The translations under genes and the position numbers were made by a program. A stretch of 64,000 nt of DNA from Lujinxingiaceae bacterium (GTDB lineage: Bacteria; Myxococcota_A; Bradymonadia; Bradymonadales; Bradymonadaceae), in NCBI GenBank assembly GCA_013697635.1, contig JACCWM010000058.1:1-64000 (forward strand), given 5' to 3'. The notes under the pieces are model-generated. The model was not told the origin of the DNA. It did no database searches and worked only from the letters and a program-made list of their open reading frames with translations. Of this stretch, positions 2,365-16,569 are shown piece by piece. The stretch's first letter is position 1. Each line of letters begins with the position of its first letter.

Positions 2365-2735
2365 AGCCTGCTCCAAAACACGGGTTGGTCAGCATCATAT
2401 AGTCGAACGAATTTTGAATTCCCGAGTGCATCCCACTGTTGACCTCGAAAGTGGGGCACTGTGACTCAAAGCACTTGGACTATCGATTGTAGGACATATT
2501 CAAAAACAGATCGCCCTCTCAGAGCGCTGTCTGGTCCAGGGGTGGAGCGATGAAATGGTGTGGCGACGGCCGATTAATTTATCTTGTAAAAAACCACCAA
2601 AGGTGCAAAAACGAAGTCATAAAGGTTGGACCATCCTCAGGCGTCAATGGTCGAGCGACCAGGTGTTTTTGGTTTGCTGCGATTAGAGATGGTGGATGCC
2701 CGTTTGGGTCGACGAAACGCCTTACAGGAGAAATG
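2365..2735. other. Divergent intergenic region, no gene
   Basis: 371 bases between two divergent genes. It must hold promoters for both, but I find no convincing -35/-10 pair. A weak hairpin (TGGTC-GAGC-GACCA at about 2649-2662) is followed by GTGTTTTT. An open frame runs in from 2550 upstream of the DUF507 protein, but its translation resembles no part of that family. Confidence 0.5.
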
Positions 2736-3248
2736 ATGCGCTTATATGGCGGACAGGTAGCGGTAATCGCAGAGGAGATTCTGCGAACCCTGACCAGGTC
2801 AGGTGATCTCGAGATCGCTCCTGAAAACATGCCGGAAGTCGAACTCGATATCCAGTCGGTGCTGCGTGAGTACATCCGCATGGATCGCGATCTGACTGAG
2901 CGAGCAAAAGACTCGATTGCCAAACACGGCGATGGCAGTGTCGGTCGCGAGAAGCGCAAGCTGGCGAAGGACAAGGGGTTCTCCGTTGGTGAAGACGCGA
3001 TTGGCTACATCATCGACCAGCTCATCGAGACGTTTTTTCATTCCCAGTTTGTCGACGAGGTCTTCTCGGCCGACAATGACTTGCGCAAGAAGATCAATCT
3101 GATTTTGCGCAGGCATATGAGCATGGATGACGAACTCGATCGCGAAGTTCGTGACAAGATCAAGAACCTCGAAGAAGGCAGCCAGGCGTGGGAGGTGGAG
3201 TATGAGCGTGTGCTCTCCAATCTCAAGCGCGCCAAGAAGCTCGAGTAG
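2736..3248 (+). CDS. DUF507 family protein
   Basis: A 170-residue soluble protein that fits the DUF507 family over its whole length. It begins MRLYGGQVAVIAEEIL and holds two similar halves: each has a VDEVFSADNDLRKKI or MPEVELDIQSVLREYI type segment followed by an MDDELDREV or MDRDLTERA segment. The family is widespread in delta-proteobacteria and Aquificota and has no established function. Two ATGs lie side by side (2733 and 2736); AGGAG at 2726-2730 is better spaced for the second. The frame is open back to 2550, but the extra 60 residues are not part of the family. The next gene is convergent, with only 14 bases between stops. Confidence 0.85.
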   Translation: MRLYGGQVAVIAEEILRTLTRSGDLEIAPENMPEVELDIQSVLREYIRMDRDLTERAKDSIAKHGDGSVGREKRKLAKDKGFSVGEDAIGYIIDQLIETFFHSQFVDEVFSADNDLRKKINLILRRHMSMDDELDREVRDKIKNLEEGSQAWEVEYERVLSNLKRAKKLE

Positions 3249-3262
3249 CAAGGGGCTTTGCT

Positions 3263-5134
3263 TTAGTCGTTATCGTTTGTCGCGCGACTGAGCATGCGCC
3301 CTCGGTTCTTATCCCACCAACCAGACCAGTAGCGATGGAGGTTCTCTCCATTGGTCTCTTCGAGCGGTGCCCAGCGGCGCGTGATGTTTTGCAACATGCG
3401 GTTGGTGTTGTAGACCACATGTTCGGGGCCTTTTCGCAAAAGTGCGATGAGGTGATCGACCACGACGAGTCGCGAGTCTTCGGGCAGAACGACGCCATAG
3501 CCTGTGTAACTATTGAGCAGCCATGTCTCTCGAGGCTGATGGCCGTTTGTGTCCCACCATCGCTGCCAAAGGGCGATGCCTTCGGCGATCGCTTGGGCGC
3601 TGGTGCTCGTCCAATTGACCGGCTGGGAGTGATTGGTGATGCGGTGCAACACGCGCGCGAGCTCTTCGCGAACGGAGGCCGGCTGGTGGGCCAGATGTTC
3701 GATTAGGATTGGGACGAGTTCGGGGCGCATGATGTGGCCAAGAGTCCGCGCTGCGAGCACTTTTTCACCGAGGAGCACTTCGGATGACTCCAAGCGAGCC
3801 AGGGCAAATTCCATGGCCAGAACATCGCCACTGCGCCGAAGGATCGCATAGGCCACGCGCCGCTCGGCGTCGGTGGTGTCGGTCGCAACGATGAACTGTT
3901 GGGCGGCGACGAGCGCGGTTGCCGACCACGAAGGGATGGCACTGGCCAATTCCAGTGCGCGTTGGCGGACCTGGGCATCCGGGTCGCGCACGCCGCGCAC
4001 AAGCGCCACTTCAGGGGTGTAAGGCGAGCGAATCTTCTCCAAAAAGTTCAATGCTTCCATGCGCTGAGTGGGGCGCGGGTCGTCGAAGGCTCGCATCAAC
4101 TCTACGGATCGTGCGAGCAAGGCCTCGTCGTGCCAGTCAACCCAGCTCCAGCGTGGGCCGCCGTCGAGGCAGCCTTCTATGCGGTCGCGGCGCGAGCAAG
4201 GGATTCTCAGATGAAAGTGATCGTTGTGGGGCAAGGCATCCGTGGGCTGATGGAGCACCTGGCTTGCTCGCTCGATCAGCGCATCTTCCTCACCTTGCTG
4301 GCGGGCGTGATCGAGCAGCATGTGCTTGAGGCCCTCGCTGATGAACAGCCACTGGACGCCGATCTCCTCATGGGTGATCAAAGCTTTTGCCAACTCCCAG
4401 TTTCGAACGACATCGAAACGAAGATCGGTGCGTCCGATCGCCCGGCCTTCGTTGTCGAAGTGCAAAAGGTCCGGGGCGAGCACAGGTTGGCCGTCCTTGG
4501 TGCTGATGCAATAGAAAGCGATGTCCGCATCGCGCCCGGCGTGGTGCGATCCGCTCCAGGGAATGCGGCCACCGCCTTTTCTTCCAATGTTTCCGACGCG
4601 TAACACGGAGCCGGGAAAGCGCTCATCGACTCGGGCAGCGCCGTATTTGATGAGGTCAATCATCTGCTGGGTACCGTAGCGCGTCTGGCGGGCGCGGTGG
4701 CGTTCGATAATCGAGTGATGTTTACCTTCAAAGGGCAGTTCAGCGGCCTCTCGCAGGGTGCCATCGCGCGTCGTCCCAAGGGACAAAGAGCCTGAGAAAC
4801 TGCGGTTTGTGTTGAGAATGGCTCGGTAATCGAGCGGATCTTCGAGCGGCTGCCACCAGCCAATGACCCGGCCACCGGCATGGGTGAGGGCGGCATCAAC
4901 GGCGGCCTGTGCTGACTGCAAGGCCGGCCCGGCATCGAGTACGAAGCGTGGCGCTGGAGCGGGATCTGCGACGAGCACCATGGGCTCTGTTGGCGCACTT
5001 TTTGCGGCACTCTCCTCAGAGGTCTTTTCGACGGGATCGGGTCTGCTCGAGGCACTTTCACTGGTTGCGCATGATCCACAAGCCGATGCGAGTGCAAAGA
5101 GCAAGATCTGGCGGCGGAATCGATTGTGAATCAT
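3263..5134 (-). CDS. MepA-like murein endopeptidase lipoprotein with HEAT-like C-terminus
   Basis: Probable zinc-dependent D,D-endopeptidase that cuts peptide cross-links in peptidoglycan. The N-terminus has a signal and lipobox-like ASAC/GSC (residues 17-22). Residues about 100-320 match the penicillin-insensitive endopeptidase family (MEROPS M74, LAS fold): SGSHHAGRDADI gives H197 and D204 as zinc ligands, and HNDHFHLRIPC gives H306/H308. The E. coli enzyme has about 274 residues; here a further 300 residues follow, with repeated helical pairs (SPYTPEVALVRGVRDPDAQVRQRALELA and later copies) that look like HEAT repeats. These might tether the enzyme to a partner. All metal ligands are kept, so activity is likely; substrate is inferred from the family only. 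Confidence 0.8.
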   Translation of the reverse strand: MIHNRFRRQILLFALASACGSCATSESASSRPDPVEKTSEESAAKSAPTEPMVLVADPAPAPRFVLDAGPALQSAQAAVDAALTHAGGRVIGWWQPLEDPLDYRAILNTNRSFSGSLSLGTTRDGTLREAAELPFEGKHHSIIERHRARQTRYGTQQMIDLIKYGAARVDERFPGSVLRVGNIGRKGGGRIPWSGSHHAGRDADIAFYCISTKDGQPVLAPDLLHFDNEGRAIGRTDLRFDVVRNWELAKALITHEEIGVQWLFISEGLKHMLLDHARQQGEEDALIERASQVLHQPTDALPHNDHFHLRIPCSRRDRIEGCLDGGPRWSWVDWHDEALLARSVELMRAFDDPRPTQRMEALNFLEKIRSPYTPEVALVRGVRDPDAQVRQRALELASAIPSWSATALVAAQQFIVATDTTDAERRVAYAILRRSGDVLAMEFALARLESSEVLLGEKVLAARTLGHIMRPELVPILIEHLAHQPASVREELARVLHRITNHSQPVNWTSTSAQAIAEGIALWQRWWDTNGHQPRETWLLNSYTGYGVVLPEDSRLVVVDHLIALLRKGPEHVVYNTNRMLQNITRRWAPLEETNGENLHRYWSGWWDKNRGRMLSRATNDND

Positions 5135-5393
5135 TGGTGTTGTCCGAGGCAGTCAATGTCGTGGAGATGGCCCGGCGCGTTGATTCGCCGCCGCATCCAC
5201 ACGTTGCGCGCTTTTAAAAAATCGCCTTGTGAGCTAATGCGCTCTACGATGGCATCGATGGACCTGGGGTCACTATAGTGATCCAAAGGCACCCGCGCAA
5301 ATTTAGCTCATCAATTCTACGCGTTCGCCGCTTGTTAAGTGCTTGAAACTATAGGTGCTTTTCTTGAGGCTCGCTTCGCTTACAAGCTGGTCG

Positions 5394-7991
5394 ATGATTC
5401 CCGTATCTCGTGGGTATTTGATTCTTTGGATAGGCGTGTTGGTCGCGGTCGTGGCCAGCCTGGCGATCGCAACGGTTCGCCTGGCGGGCCTCTCGGAGCT
5501 CCCCGTCTTTTTGGGGCCGGATCTGACCGTGCGCACGGTGCGCATGGATCGCGGCGCGGGCCCCGAGGTACAACAGTTTCAACGCGGCGATAGGCTGGTT
5601 GCAGTCCAGCGCCAGGCTGTCGACGATCTGCGAGACCTTCGACTTGTCCTGCCAAACTTTCCGGCGCAGACCGAGCAAGTCATCGAGGAGGCCTTCGAAG
5701 ATGATGGCAATCTCTTGGTGGACTATCAGATCGTGCGACCCTTGCATCGTTTCACGCTGGCACTGCAAGGTGATCCACTCGATCCACTCACTCTGCCACC
5801 GGGAGTCGAGCCCAAAGACCGCCTGGTTGAGATTGACGGCCGCCAACTGCCCGGCGTTGGGCCCGAGGGCCTGCGCAGTATCATGGCAAGCCGTCCCGAT
5901 GCGCTGCTTGGCTTTGAGCGGCCCAATGCCGTCTTTGTGGGTCAGATGCGCGTGCCAAAGCCGATGATCCACTATGGCATCGTACTGACGTTTGGGCTGG
6001 CGTTGCTGATTATCCTCATCTTGTGGCGCTTTCGAAGCGAAACGCTGCATCCCCTCACGACATTGGCGATCGCGCTCGAGACACTGGGCATCGCCTGGCT
6101 CTTCTTGCTGGCCTTTCAATACCAGTGGTTGATCGCCGATTACACGTTGACGGCCTGCTTGATCGTCGGGCTCGTGATGATGCGCCCGCTGGCAATCTAT
6201 GCGCGCGACCAATCGGTCAACGATGATGCGACGCGAGGAAAGGTCGCTCTCGGGCTGGGCGTGTTGGTGGCGTTGTCGCTTGTGGTGTTGCTCTATTACC
6301 AGTTGCCCAACGCGGAGACGGCCCTTCATATGGCCGCCATCTTGACGGGACTGTTCATCATCTACGAGATCGTGATCACCGGCTATGAGCAGGGTTCGCG
6401 GGCCATGCTTGGCGAGCGAGGTGGCTATCTGGTGGGGATAGTCATTCTGGTGCTCTTTGCCGGTCTGGTCGCGGCATTGATGGAGCCGCTGGCCTTTGAA
6501 GAAGACCGGTGGCGTTGGTTTGTCGTGCTCATTCCAACGCTGGTTTGGTTCGGAGACGTGCTCTTTTGCCTTCGCCAAAGCGGCGGGCACGGATGGGCCG
6601 ACATTGGCGATAAGCAGGCCCGTCAGATCACATTGCTCGAGTACTTTCGCCTTCTTGGTCGGGAGTTGCCTCAGACCAGTTTACAGTTCGTCTTGCATCG
6701 CAACGAGCGTTCGATCGTTTTGGCCGACCGTGGAAGCGAAGTTGAAGTTCTGCCGGCTTCGGGCGCGCTCAACGATGCGGTGGCGATTTTGATCCAGGAG
6801 AATGCACGCATTCCCCTGGCTGAGAGTGCCGAGCGCCAGGTCCATCCGATGGCCGGCATCGCCCAGACCATGCAAATGGCACTGGCGCTTCGCCTGAGCG
6901 CGCCCTCTCATGGCATTCAAGTCGACCAGGCCTACCTGGTTTTGATCGCGCTGCAACATCTGCGGGCGGGTGAGATGCCCACGTATGCGTCCGCTGAGAC
7001 CCTCGATCACGCTCAAAAGCACATGACCAGCCAGATATGGTCCGCCGCGATGATCGAAGGCCTCGAGGGCTTCGCGAGTATGATCGGTCAAGTTAGCGGC
7101 ACGACCCGCGTGGGGGCCGACCCTGAGACACCGGTCAAGCTGATCGAGCTGCAAGTCCGCATTGAGGAGGCCAGTGCGCAACTCGTCGAGAGTGAGGAGA
7201 GCCTTCGCCTCATGAACCGAGAGTGCGCCGAATTGGCGACGCGTGTTCAGTTTTTTGAGCACCAATGGAGCCAGACGCGCCTCGGCCTCTCCGATTGCCA
7301 GCGCCTGCTCGAAGTTGAGCTGATTGAGGGCGTGCAATACTTGTTGGCGTCCGACGACGCGATCGTCGTCGCCGGTGCCAATGGCGTGGGTCGGGAGTTC
7401 GTCGCATGGTGTGCGCATCTGCTCGAGGGGCGACCGCAGGCACTGTTCGGAATCTACGATGCATCCCGCGGCAGTGACAAAAAGGACGTTCGCGTTCTGC
7501 TGGGAGCTGGCCCTGGCGTGGGTCGTCAGCCCAGTGGGTTGCTCGAGCAGTGCCAGGGTGGAACGGTGTTCGTGCGCTCGAGCGAGAATCTGAGCGATAC
7601 TTTGTTGGTCGATCTTTGCAACGCTGCCAGAGAGTTCGAGGTGCGCTTGTTTTTGGCCTTTACCAGCCATGACGCCGAGAAACACTCGGTTTTGGAAGGC
7701 CGCCCGGGGGAGCTTCGCGCACGCCTGGGAGAGCGCGAGTTGATACTTCCGAGCTTTTTTCGCCGTCGCACGATCATGCGTCCGGTGCTCCTGCACTTTC
7801 TGGCCGAAGCCGCCCAGACTCGTGGAAAGGTCATCGATGGGTTTTCCAGCATGGCAATGCAGGCGCTCGAAGCCTATGATTATCCGGGCGAGATCAACGA
7901 GGCGCGCATGATCGTCGATCTGGCCGTTGCACGTGCCGCACACGATGTCATCGATCTCGAGGATCTCAGCCTCGAAGTGCGACCTTCCTGA
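5394..7991 (+). CDS. Polytopic membrane protein with PDZ-like, GAF-like and degenerate NtrC-type AAA+ domains
   Basis: An 865-residue protein that I do not recognise as a named family. After one N-terminal membrane segment comes a periplasmic stretch with a PDZ-like core (EPKDRLVEIDGRQLPG), then about seven membrane segments (residues about 180-395). The cytoplasmic part holds a GAF-like region, a short coiled coil (near LIELQVRIEEASAQLVESEE) and a C-terminal domain resembling sigma-54 activators. That domain is decayed: Walker A reads GANGVGRE (residue 661 on; Lys replaced by Arg), the Walker B site reads GGTVFVRS (722 on; no Asp/Glu), GAFTGA is missing, and the sensor II segment is YPGEINE in place of WPGNVRE. 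It probably senses or scaffolds and does not hydrolyse ATP. Start is uncertain: ATG 5394 or GTG 5355; neither has a strong ribosome site. Confidence 0.7.
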   Translation: MIPVSRGYLILWIGVLVAVVASLAIATVRLAGLSELPVFLGPDLTVRTVRMDRGAGPEVQQFQRGDRLVAVQRQAVDDLRDLRLVLPNFPAQTEQVIEEAFEDDGNLLVDYQIVRPLHRFTLALQGDPLDPLTLPPGVEPKDRLVEIDGRQLPGVGPEGLRSIMASRPDALLGFERPNAVFVGQMRVPKPMIHYGIVLTFGLALLIILILWRFRSETLHPLTTLAIALETLGIAWLFLLAFQYQWLIADYTLTACLIVGLVMMRPLAIYARDQSVNDDATRGKVALGLGVLVALSLVVLLYYQLPNAETALHMAAILTGLFIIYEIVITGYEQGSRAMLGERGGYLVGIVILVLFAGLVAALMEPLAFEEDRWRWFVVLIPTLVWFGDVLFCLRQSGGHGWADIGDKQARQITLLEYFRLLGRELPQTSLQFVLHRNERSIVLADRGSEVEVLPASGALNDAVAILIQENARIPLAESAERQVHPMAGIAQTMQMALALRLSAPSHGIQVDQAYLVLIALQHLRAGEMPTYASAETLDHAQKHMTSQIWSAAMIEGLEGFASMIGQVSGTTRVGADPETPVKLIELQVRIEEASAQLVESEESLRLMNRECAELATRVQFFEHQWSQTRLGLSDCQRLLEVELIEGVQYLLASDDAIVVAGANGVGREFVAWCAHLLEGRPQALFGIYDASRGSDKKDVRVLLGAGPGVGRQPSGLLEQCQGGTVFVRSSENLSDTLLVDLCNAAREFEVRLFLAFTSHDAEKHSVLEGRPGELRARLGERELILPSFFRRRTIMRPVLLHFLAEAAQTRGKVIDGFSSMAMQALEAYDYPGEINEARMIVDLAVARAAHDVIDLEDLSLEVRPS

Positions 7992-8117
7992 GATTGCCAG
8001 CCACAATAGGGCTCTGAGCAAGGCATTGGTGTCGATTGTTGACTTGGCCCTTAAGGGTTTTCATCATAGAAACCTGTTCGGCTCTCCAATCGGCACTCCC
8101 TCTTGCAAGGCAGCGCA

Positions 8118-10073
8118 ATGGCGTTTCAAACCACTCGATATGCTCAACTCTGGATCTTCGCTAGCTGTATTCTCGGCCTCATTGCTGGCAGTTGTCTGGC
8201 CGGCACGGAGCAGGAACCAGGCGACGATGAACGATTTGTGCGAACCATACCGATCGGTTTTGATCTGGACGTGGCCGTAGAGAGCTCCATCTTAAGTTTT
8301 CGCTTGCATGGCACGAACCGCCTGGTCGCTGAACAGGCGGTGGTCCACATCGTCGGAGTCAGTGGTACGGGGGGCGCAATCGATAGCTCCTTTGTGGTCG
8401 AGGCCAAGCGCGAGGGTGATGTCGGGGACATGTATTTGGAGCTGCCCGTGCGCCATATCTGGTCGCTGTTCAACCCGGCTCCACGCGATCGATTTTCAGG
8501 CCGCTTTGAAATCGAGCTGGTCGATTCGATTGGCGTGCTTGGCCGCGGACATGTCGAGCAGGTGACGCTGACGCTCGAGTCGCGCTTTCATCCGCGTCTT
8601 GAGCGACTCGTGGGCGGCCAGGTTCACGTCAATCAACTCATCGAGGTCAGCGGTGAGAACTTTTTGCGCCCCGAGGAGGGTACGACATGGGCCCTGGTCG
8701 AGCGCGGCAGTGTACGTTACTCGAACTCCAGGCAACGTGACATCGCGGGCACCCGGATCGCACTGGTGTGGAACGGGAGTCGAACAAGCGCGTATTTGCC
8801 GATTGCCCCGGCCGTTTTTGGCGTCGAGGTTGCTGAATTCGACGCTGATTTGCGCTTTGAGAATCAGCTGAGCACTGGCGTTCGCTTCGAGGGCAACCGT
8901 CAAGATGGCTTCAATGGCTCGATATTACAGTCCTATATTGCGGCTCTCACCCCTGAGCGGGGAAGTCGCGGACAGCGCATTCAGATGAGCGGGCGTGGTT
9001 TCGTTGCGACGTCGACCGACGATGGCTACGGGATGCTCCTGCGCTATGAGGGGACGTTTACGCCCTCCGACCGCTCGCAAGCCGTCTTGCAGTTGACCGG
9101 CGCCCATGCTCTGGAGCGAGTTCCTGACAAGGTCGAGCGTGAAGATTCGCTCGAGCAAAGCGTGTGGTACGCGATTCAAGGGCGTACCCTTTCGGGTTTT
9201 GGGGCCCAGCCCGGGGTATTTCGGGGCACGATTACGCCGCTGCTTGTCGACGCGTTTGGTGAACAAGAGGGATTGGCCTGGCAAGGCGACTTTACGATTT
9301 TGTCGACCAAACAGGTGGTCTACCTCAAATACCTTCCAGCCTTCTCCAAAGGCCTTGAGAAGTACGGCCTGGAGAACGTCGAGCGCGAGATTCGAGATCG
9401 CATCTTGGAGGTAGTTCGCCGCGACTACGCCGGCGTCAATGTTCGCTTCGGAGAGGATGAGCCACGTGATTTCATCGAGTTTTCAACCATTGAACTTGGC
9501 GGGCCCGATCCGTCAGGAAACGACGCGTTTGGCTATGACAACACCTTTAACGACGACGCCAAGGACACCGGTAATCTGTATCTGAGCGACTACCTTGGGG
9601 GGCTCAACGCCCAGAGCGGAGCCGAATTCAACAATCCTTATGGTGGTATCTTCATCGAGTCGTTCTCGAATTTCAGCCCAACGTTGTCACCGGACACCGC
9701 TTATAGCTCGCCGGAGTTCGATCGTATCCTCAAGCCGTTCATGCCGTTGCTTGCTGGAAGGCCGGTGCGAGCGACCGAGTGGCCTGCGGGCGCGCGCACC
9801 GAAGCGATTCGCGAGGCGATTTGGATGGTCGGAAACGTGGTTGCAAACACGGTCTCTCATGAGATCGGCCATTCGTTGGGCTTGACCTTTTATCCCGAGG
9901 ACTGGAATCAGCCGACGAATGTTTTTCACAATTCGATTCCTGGCGATTGCATCATGGACAGTGGTCAAGACCGCTCGTTCGAGGAACGCGCCGAGCTCGG
10001 AGGGCGCCAGCCTGCGCGCTTCAACGAGCGAAACCTCCAATACCTCAAACAGATCTTGCCGCTCACGGATTGA
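8118..10073 (+). CDS. Secreted putative metalloprotease with IPT/TIG-like region
   Basis: A 651-residue predicted lipoprotein: [11 protein letters not shown] at residues about 20-30 is a plausible lipobox. The middle contains Ig-like beta-rich segments; [17 protein letters not shown] (about residue 280) and [19 protein letters not shown] look like the openings of IPT/TIG domains. Near the C-terminus is HEIGHSLGL (H581, E582, H585), the zinc-binding helix of metzincin-like proteases, followed by CIMD, which may be the Met-turn. The position of the usual third ligand (HExxHxxGxxH) is Phe, so either another His/Asp serves or the site is impaired. Start ATG 8118 has AAGG nearby; an in-frame TTG at 8103 is less likely. 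Substrate unknown. Confidence 0.65.
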
Positions 10074-14468: not shown

Positions 14469-15752
14469 ATGGGTTTGAAGTGTAATCGGGCTGCGGCAAT
14501 CGTCGCAGCCCTGTTTTGTTTTGTGGGCTGCTCCGATGATCCGCAAGAGGCATTTCCCGCTCTTGAGCCGGCGGCCGATCTGGTTCTTTCGGCTAATACG
14601 TTGGGCGTTGGATTTCGCCATGGTGAAGCGGCAGCGATAGCCTTCAATACGCCAGCAGACTTTGCGCGCGTTCCAACAGCGATGCAACATGCCGTTTTGC
14701 ATGTGCAATCCTACGATGAGTTTGCTCCGGTTTTTGGAGACCACTACGTTCATCCCACGCCCAGTCTCTTCACTTCGCGCGGTCCCGCAGGTTTTTCTGG
14801 TTCGAACTCGGCCGCGGCCCGCATGCAAAACCGCGTGGGTGATCTGCTCGCCGAGATCGACCTGGCGATCGCACATGCTGACGCCGGCGAGTTCGCTCAG
14901 GTTCACGTGGTGGTGGATTTCTGGCGCACGCGAGGCGATTGGTTTGTTCAATGGGGCGGCGCGCTCACCGAAGGGAGCAATACGGTTGGCAAAGGCAACT
15001 ATGGCTTCGATACGCCTTTGATGGTCGAGGAGTTGCTCGATGGGCTGGCCAAGATCGCCGCTGATCATAAACCGGCGACCATGGTTATCGGCCACCGCAT
15101 CGATCGTATGATCGCCACCGAAGGCGGTGAGGGCATTGCGCCGGAGCAATTTGAGCGCTTCGTGGAATTCTACGCAAAGGCCGCGGCGCGAGTTCGTCAG
15201 GCATCGCCTGAGACGCGCGTTGGAAGTGGTTTTCATTGGGACAATGTCGTCTCGCACGTGGCCGAGGCGTACGCCGATGGTGGTCCGGTCGACGAGGCGG
15301 CCATCGACCGAGCATTTACTGCGGTTTTGCTTCCGATCGCTCGCCAGAGCGACATCGTCGCCCTGGAGAGCTATACGAGCGTCGCAGCCGCGAACGAGCA
15401 AGGTTATCAGTACTTGCGGCGCCTGCCGGCTCGCCATGGCCTCAAGTTACCCGTGGTTTGGTACAGCGTGGGCTCCCCGGTGACTTCAAAGGTGGAGTAT
15501 GTCCAGCAACGTGTTTATCTGGAGCGATTTCGCAAATGGAACGCTGGTGTACCCGTCGATCTGGTCAGTTGGCGCATGTTGGCCAATTTCGACGGCGCCG
15601 ACACCTCCGATCAGGTCATTCGCGGACGTTGTGCGGCGATTATCGCTGCGGACAAACAATTTTTGATGGCGAAGTCGTACTGCTTCGACGGCCTTTTGAC
15701 GAGCCTGCAAGCCAAACCCGTGTTTGACTTTATTGACGCTCTTGCCCGTTGA
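14469..15752 (+). CDS. Predicted lipoprotein, glycoside-hydrolase-like barrel
   Basis: A 427-residue predicted lipoprotein. The signal peptide ends in a clear lipobox (CFVGC, Cys at residue 21). The rest has the alternating beta/alpha pattern of a TIM barrel: VHVVVDFWRTRGDWF, TMVIGHRIDRMIA, RVGSGFHWDNV, DIVALESYTSV, LPVVWYSVGSPV and PVDLVSWRML would be successive strands. This resembles glycoside hydrolases of clan A, with E366-type residues hard to assign by eye, so the catalytic role is an inference. ATG 14469 follows GGTGAGCG. Its 3' end overlaps by 23 bases the convergent gene that ends at 15730. Confidence 0.6.
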   Translation: MGLKCNRAAAIVAALFCFVGCSDDPQEAFPALEPAADLVLSANTLGVGFRHGEAAAIAFNTPADFARVPTAMQHAVLHVQSYDEFAPVFGDHYVHPTPSLFTSRGPAGFSGSNSAAARMQNRVGDLLAEIDLAIAHADAGEFAQVHVVVDFWRTRGDWFVQWGGALTEGSNTVGKGNYGFDTPLMVEELLDGLAKIAADHKPATMVIGHRIDRMIATEGGEGIAPEQFERFVEFYAKAAARVRQASPETRVGSGFHWDNVVSHVAEAYADGGPVDEAAIDRAFTAVLLPIARQSDIVALESYTSVAAANEQGYQYLRRLPARHGLKLPVVWYSVGSPVTSKVEYVQQRVYLERFRKWNAGVPVDLVSWRMLANFDGADTSDQVIRGRCAAIIAADKQFLMAKSYCFDGLLTSLQAKPVFDFIDALAR

Positions 15753-16569
15753 TCACTTTTGAGGGAAGGGGGTCGGGCTCGAGCAACTTGTCGAGGCGCG
15801 CCTCGATTTTGGCGCGCTGTTCGGTCCCAATGTAGATGCCAATGACCCGATGCTCAGCGTCGAGCAGAAACGCGATTGGATAGGTTCGCACAAAGAATGC
15901 GGCATGGCCGCGTTCGCCGAGGTCGTGGGCGAGTAAATAGGCTGCGCCGTGCTGGGCGGCATATTGGGTGATCGTTTTGGCGGGCTCCGAGCTGATGCCG
16001 ACGATGTGGATGCGATCGCCGTACTTGCTCGCGATCGCACCGAGATCGGCCGCGACAGCCTTGCAGGGTGTGCACCAGGTGGCCCAAAACTCGACGATGG
16101 TCGGTTTGCCCTTCATGGACGATAAATCGAGCGCACGCGAAGCCGGGGCAACAGTCTCGAAGGCAAAGGAGGGTGCAAGCTGGTCGAGCAATTGATCTTC
16201 GATGAGCTGGTGCATAGCCGGAGCCGGCGCCAGCGCAACGCTTGATTCGAGCCGCTTGCCTTTGCGTATCACGACAATCTTCACGGTTGCCTGGGCATCT
16301 TGGCCCCGAAGCAACATCTGCAACTTGCCCAGGCTGTTTACAGGCTCGCCGTTGATGCTGATTATGCGGTCGCCTGGGCGAAGATCGGATTTGATCGCGG
16401 GAGAATTGCGAAGCACGTTCTCAATGACGACCCCTTGGTCGTCGATTATAGTTGTTTTTTCGAGGATGACCCCCAGCCAGGGTTGGGGTGGAGTTTGGGC
16501 GAAAGCCTCAGCGCTCGAGTGAAGGAGCAAGACAATGATCAGAAGGCTGCGGAATAGAGCCAGATTCAT
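15730..16569 (-). CDS. Periplasmic PDZ-thioredoxin (TlpA-like) protein
   Basis: A 279-residue exported thiol-disulphide protein. A signal peptide ends near residue 25 (AEAFAQ). Residues about 30-115 are a PDZ domain (LRPGDRIISINGEPV); residues about 135-270 are a TlpA/ResA-like thioredoxin with FWATWCTPCK, so C166 and C169 form the redox pair. TlpA-like proteins reduce disulphides in the periplasm, often for cytochrome c or Cu sites, and need electrons from a DsbD or CcdA. A DsbD-like gene starts 160 bases away on the other strand, which makes a functional pair likely. The PDZ part may pick substrates or partners. A PDZ ahead of the TlpA domain is unusual. Confidence 0.8.
   Translation of the reverse strand: MNLALFRSLLIIVLLLHSSAEAFAQTPPQPWLGVILEKTTIIDDQGVVIENVLRNSPAIKSDLRPGDRIISINGEPVNSLGKLQMLLRGQDAQATVKIVVIRKGKRLESSVALAPAPAMHQLIEDQLLDQLAPSFAFETVAPASRALDLSSMKGKPTIVEFWATWCTPCKAVAADLGAIASKYGDRIHIVGISSEPAKTITQYAAQHGAAYLLAHDLGERGHAAFFVRTYPIAFLLDAEHRVIGIYIGTEQRAKIEARLDKLLEPDPLPSKVINGQERQ

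Follow-up and report, generated by a model that had tools for sequence, protein, structure and literature searches.

In textbook accounts bEBPs are soluble ATPases that work with sigma-54, and canonical members place a Fis HTH after the lid of the AAA+ domain. A number of relatives without a working GAFTGA motif (TyrR, DhaR, HupR, VpsR, YplP and Caulobacter NtrC) are soluble, DNA-binding proteins. These relatives have left sigma-54, and TyrR, DhaR, HupR and Caulobacter NtrC serve as regulators at sigma-70-type promoters (PMC3162934, PMC12421884). Other bEBPs have no DNA-binding domain at all, namely Chlamydia CtcC, Helicobacter FlgR and Rhodobacter FleT, which are listed as sigma-54 EBPs (PMC3162934). 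One-component regulators that work from the membrane, e.g., ToxR and CadC, are common (PMC10269533).

Here we analyze a gene that shares features with each of these groups; its product resembles a transcription factor that has been retired from that role and continues to be used as a membrane signalling protein. It belongs to a member of the Bradymonadia, a class known for predatory bacteria, and lies in a stretch of 64,000 nucleotides, hereafter the window, from a genome of 6.2 Mb in 213 contigs. The gene, its parts and its closest neighbours are as follows.

2550..3248 (+), DUF507 protein, conserved, adjoining the M74 gene (Pfam 1.4e-30)
3263..5134 (-), M74 murein endopeptidase with HEAT repeats, divergent and conserved neighbour (Pfam Peptidase_M74 2.8e-11)
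5394..7991 (+), whole gene of the membrane pseudo-AAA+ protein; full-length orthologues at ~34-47% identity
5400..5483 (+), TM1, residues 3-30 (AlphaFold helix and hydropathy)
5484..5969 (+), periplasmic tandem PDZ region, residues 31-192 (family profile A6 matches and Pfam PDZ_6 in orthologue L005)
5973..6575 (+), TM2-TM8, seven helices, residues 194-394 (hydropathy and AlphaFold)
6591..7094 (+), GAF-like domain, residues 400-567 (AlphaFold, weak GAF fold matches and homology to HTH-bearing relatives)
7134..7274 (+), coiled-coil helix, residues 581-627 (AlphaFold)
7305..7763 (+), degenerate bEBP-type AAA+ core, about residues 638-790
7374..7397 (+), Walker A GANGVGRE, residues 661-668, with Lys replaced by Arg at 667 (CGG)
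7557..7592 (+), GGTVFVRSSENL, the strand of the former Walker B, without its acids, residues 722-733 (aligned to four intact bEBPs from this genome)
7785..7982 (+), AAA+ lid, residues 798-863 (Pfam AAA_lid_14 1.3e-9)
7881..7904 (+), YPGEINEA within the lid, with the sensor II Arg replaced by Asn
7992..8102 (+), gap to the next gene, with no trace of a C-terminal HTH
8103..10073 (+), secreted protein of 656 aa, frequent downstream neighbour, no Pfam match

The reading frame is intact (865 codons, ATG start), and in a 17-sequence alignment the starts of the orthologues line up with the Met at 5394, in agreement with the coordinates of the initial annotation; an upstream GTG at 5355 was not preferred, since the orthologues align from 5394. 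Hydropathy and AlphaFold together predict eight TM helices, as that annotation had proposed, and the odd number of helices (seven) after the periplasmic part would leave the C-terminal half in the cytoplasm. What had been described as a PDZ-like periplasmic part is in fact a pair of PDZ domains: the family profile matches DegQ/DegP (two stretches, E 4e-8) and the PDZ tandems of site-2 proteases, and Pfam PDZ_6 matches one orthologue at 1.1e-5, while a Pfam search with the window protein alone returned no PDZ match. DegP/DegQ, RseP and other site-2 proteases share the periplasmic PDZ pair with the window's family; unlike them, the window protein has no protease domain. The AlphaFold model (pLDDT 76 overall, about 85-90 across most of the AAA+ part) resolves a mixed alpha/beta domain at residues 400-567 and an AAA+ part at 632-865. 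The alpha/beta domain, earlier called GAF-like, is modelled confidently (pLDDT 89), but its identity as a GAF domain is less secure: its top fold matches are GAF domains, yet weak ones (best E 0.008, TM about 0.4), and a Pfam GAF match was not obtained for this region.

The reading of the C-terminal part as a sigma-54-activator-like AAA+ domain was borne out by predicted structure and by sequence. The best Foldseek match was NtrC1 (1ny6, E 1e-10, TM-score by target 0.73), followed closely by ZraR, VpsR and PspF, and sequence searches against NCBIfam and PDB matched the whole C-terminal domain to NtrX, ZraR, PspF and NtrC1. Pfam Sigma54_activat itself gave a sub-threshold match to the window protein (0.0078). 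The NtrC-type AAA+ fold with its lid is thus present, and fold, lid and motif order are shared with bEBPs such as NtrC1, ZraR and PspF.

To characterize the losses, we aligned members from across the class against four intact bEBPs from the window's genome. The GAFTGA (L1) loop, whose former site in the window protein lies just upstream of the former Walker B strand, is deleted in every member aligned, HTH-bearing relatives included, and so is, or is shortened, the L2 / pre-sensor-I insertion of about 13 residues, a loss that the initial annotation had not recorded. Within the window's family the Walker B acidic pair is not conserved (three of the four f2 members, by comparison, retain an acidic ED pair at this position), the sensor I Asn is lost throughout, and among 17 aligned family members a sensor II Arg is found only in L016. 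Walker A has fared otherwise: position 667 is Lys in 16 of these 17 sequences, the GxxGxGK motif being kept in the same proportion and in most class members, and Arg occurs in the window copy only. The exchange therefore appears private to this copy within its family's aligned members. An error of assembly is conceivable here, but an HTH-bearing f2 orthologue (G021, L115 1535-4477) also has Arg in place of the Walker A Lys (GPPGIGRRF), a parallel change of independent origin. Walker A decays further in an HTH-less orthologue (L154 3220-6900, genome G030), where the P-loop reads GEPGTCKG with Cys in place of Gly.

The claim that every catalytic feature is gone, with GAFTGA deleted, Walker B acids and sensor II Arg lost and Lys turned to Arg, thus describes the window copy correctly and overstates the case for its family, in which all of these losses recur (that of sensor II with the one exception) apart from that of the Walker A Lys. 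Judged by sequence, a protein that differs from bEBPs in Walker B, L1/L2, sensor I, sensor II and, in the window copy, the Walker A Lys should not be a functional bEBP. Its family also differs from bEBPs in carrying a polytopic membrane part with a PDZ tandem and no HTH. The retained P-loop of the relatives would fit a nucleotide-gated membrane switch, in which ATP or ADP in the P-loop sets ring assembly and the conformation of the GAF and TM parts and the window copy is a locked variant. We consider this very improbable: neither Walker B nor sensor I is left, sensor II has almost entirely disappeared, and both the window copy and G021 carry Arg.

The missing HTH, on which the initial annotation was silent, is the key to the identity of the protein: relatives of the same architecture carry one. 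Four families of the class (f2, f4, f5 and f6) encode similarly arranged proteins, roughly 900-1075 aa long, that have a C-terminal HTH in addition. It is recognized as Pfam HTH_8 (1e-6 to 4e-11) in f2, f4 and f6 and as Fis-like in f5; its profile matches Fis in PDB, and these relatives share a Fis-type HTH with bEBPs. Profile comparison of the HTH-bearing and HTH-less groups linked their GAF-like domains (97.5%, hhalign) and their AAA+ domains (E 2.6e-38). We asked whether the HTH had been split off or frameshifted downstream. A scan with an HTH profile found no remnant downstream of the gene at 13 family loci, where the top score was 2.1 bits against 78 and 46 bits for the positive controls. 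The explanation was likewise rejected for genus g23 of f4, in which G030 and G036 have a syntenic gene with PDZ, TMs and pseudo-AAA+ and without HTH. In a maximum-likelihood tree, well-supported branches force at least two changes of HTH state (f1; g23 of f4). Loss is a simpler reading than gain, since a Fis HTH behind the lid is canonical in bEBPs and is found in four families, and we infer at least two independent losses of the HTH, in the window's family and in g23. The opposite truncation occurs in G033 (L114 7853-9556), where one TM, the GAF-like domain, the pseudo-AAA+ and the HTH remain, the PDZ domains and the other TMs are gone, and the locus neighbours are kept. Class-level proteins alike in the AAA+ part only, e.g., a Ser/Thr-kinase-AAA fusion (L082) and a response regulator (L083), are ordinary bEBPs and were set aside.

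Since the L1 and L2 losses extend to the HTH-bearing relatives, the lineage seems to have parted from sigma-54 first and from DNA later. The initial annotation had offered a role at RpoN-dependent genes, which is not supported, as both loops are absent or reduced in all members examined; with these loops missing, contact of the window protein with sigma-54/RpoN is unlikely. A related possibility is that the protein docks or titrates intact RpoN activators, co-assembling with true bEBPs into mixed rings at the membrane and thereby relaying a periplasmic signal to sigma-54 promoters. The bEBP fold of the AAA+ part, the presence of RpoN and intact bEBPs in the same genome, the precedent of bEBPs without a DNA-binding domain (CtcC, FlgR and FleT; PMC3162934) and the effect of Caulobacter NtrC mutants on sigma-54 genes despite the missing GAFTGA (PMC12421884) would all fit such docking. 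Nevertheless, the early exit from sigma-54 suggested by the HTH-bearing relatives, and RpoN promoter matches within the window that do not exceed chance, make it improbable in our view.

Synteny ties the two forms of the gene together. In the window's family the pseudo-AAA+ gene is divergent from the M74 gene, with DUF507 beyond, and the M74 orthologue adjoins it in those family members whose contigs extend that far. A divergent M74 gene and DUF507 also lie beside the HTH-bearing f4 members of G027 (L072) and G033, and in G031 of f6 an M74 gene and a TIG-type secreted protein are found near the HTH-bearing gene. This shared synteny indicates that HTH-bearing and HTH-less forms are orthologous. 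In f2 and f5 the gene was not seen adjoining M74. The three family members without the gene have just weak M74 matches, in other surroundings. The link to murein thus rests on neighbourhood and shared absence, both of which joint deletion by adjacency, or draft assemblies, could produce.

Several neighbouring features were noted at these loci. In G031 a GAF-HATPase histidine-kinase-like gene (L076 7801-9051) separates the HTH-bearing regulator from M74; the secreted protein at 8103-10073 (+) of the window has a motif like that of a metzincin without the third His; and a Cys-rich secreted protein with repeated DUF7107 domains (778-2376, -) is kept beside the DUF507 gene in the family. We also compared the divergent spacers of the window locus and its relatives and found no conserved operator. 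The window's spacer holds a perfect 12-bp palindrome (TCACTATAGTGA, 5270-5281) that occurs once in the window, with none expected by chance, but it is absent from the relatives' loci and was rejected as a conserved operator. Inverted repeats upstream of f5 members were rejected too, as they look like terminators of a neighbouring rplC-type gene.

The gene is widespread in its family and confined in its reach. It is present once per genome in 18 of the 21 genomes of the window's family (Bradymonadaceae-type Bradymonadia), the window's included, i.e., in 17 of the 20 others, in one of which (G002) it is split across two contigs; G001, G008 and G012 have no copy. All of these genomes are draft assemblies. 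Beyond the class, we covered a phylum-wide sample of 379 genomes, in which full-length members were found in class Bradymonadia only and matches elsewhere were short and mostly PDZ-sized. GTDB genomes were covered by a single motif scan, and the matches confirmed there were Bradymonadaceae, Lujinxingia or Myxococcales-type MAG records. Within one genus of the window's family, the AAA+ domain had a dN/dS of 0.05-0.10, and the membrane and periplasmic parts one of 0.01-0.04. Purifying selection thus acts on the gene, most tightly in the TM and periplasmic parts.

These values, together with the orthologues in 17 further genomes, rule out a recent pseudogene. That reading had been tied to relatives with both an intact P-loop and an intact GAFTGA; the relatives do have the P-loop Lys, but GAFTGA is absent from them, and they give no reason to infer a recent pseudogene, given the age of the other losses and the strength of selection. 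Another reading is that the AAA+ part is a decaying, functionless tail and the PDZ/TM part does the work, e.g., by presenting or holding the M74 endopeptidase. Freely varying catalytic sites, the loss of the Walker A Lys from the window copy and from G021, the HTH lost twice and the tightest constraint falling outside the AAA+ domain would all fit such a tail. We nonetheless think it unlikely, as a dispensable tail would be cut by stops over such divergence, whereas the AAA+ and lid domain is complete in all family members, is itself constrained and keeps a set of invariant residues (R751, L754, R781, E782, P786, R791 and E836).

The best overall explanation, to which we assign a probability of roughly 0.6 as a whole, is that the window protein descends, in truncated form, from an NtrC-derived one-component transcription regulator that was embedded in the membrane and is peculiar to Bradymonadia, and that it is now a pseudo-AAA+ signalling protein acting by protein contact. 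The ancestor would have used its PDZ domains to sense the state of the envelope and would have regulated promoters of the sigma-70 type close to the membrane, with that of the divergent M74 gene as a plausible target; the sigma-70 role is suggested solely by the missing sigma-54 loops, as in other GAFTGA-less relatives. In the window's family a periplasmic signal would still reach the AAA+ module by way of the membrane and GAF parts; this module has probably lost ATP hydrolysis and promoter opening and may serve as an assembly or docking platform acting on a partner. Nucleotide binding may persist in members with the P-loop Lys, and the window copy may be more inert. The protein would thereby serve envelope or murein remodelling, probably beside the M74 enzyme. 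A stronger version, which we put forward only tentatively, is that the AAA+ module of a transcription factor became, on at least two independent occasions, a DNA-free and ATPase-dead signalling platform in the membrane, in which the PDZ domains would read the periplasm and the pseudo-AAA+ assembly would pass the signal on by protein contact, controlling the activity of the murein endopeptidase and not its gene.

Each piece of this architecture has a known counterpart. The GAFTGA-less bEBP relatives have also left sigma-54, and one of them, VpsR, is among the nearest solved structures; unlike those soluble proteins, the window protein has a membrane part and periplasmic sensor, has lost L2 and has no DNA-binding domain. 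CtcC, FlgR and FleT likewise have an AAA+ module without HTH, but the window protein is without sigma-54 loops and Walker B. ToxR and CadC resemble the HTH-bearing relatives as one-component regulators working from the membrane, and differ in that here there are eight TMs, a PDZ tandem and an AAA+ domain between membrane and HTH, the DNA-binding domain being absent from the window's family and g23. Searches of the open-access literature gave no polytopic or PDZ-bearing bEBP or bEBP descendant, and no case that joins these traits to repeated loss of the HTH; in that sense the combination appears new. In one lineage, a bEBP module seems to have moved into the membrane behind PDZ sensors, had its sigma-54 surface removed and dropped DNA binding twice, with the remainder still selected. 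This provides a natural series at one locus by a cell-wall hydrolase (HTH kept, HTH lost, membrane part lost) and enables a direct test of what a bEBP AAA+ module does without ATP hydrolysis, sigma-54 or DNA. A DNA-free, ATPase-dead platform, if true, would be a new mode of transmembrane signalling in bacteria, evolved from sigma-54 machinery. Elsewhere in the window, a PDZ domain also occurs in a small exported protein (15730-16569, -), where it is fused to a thioredoxin/redoxin domain.
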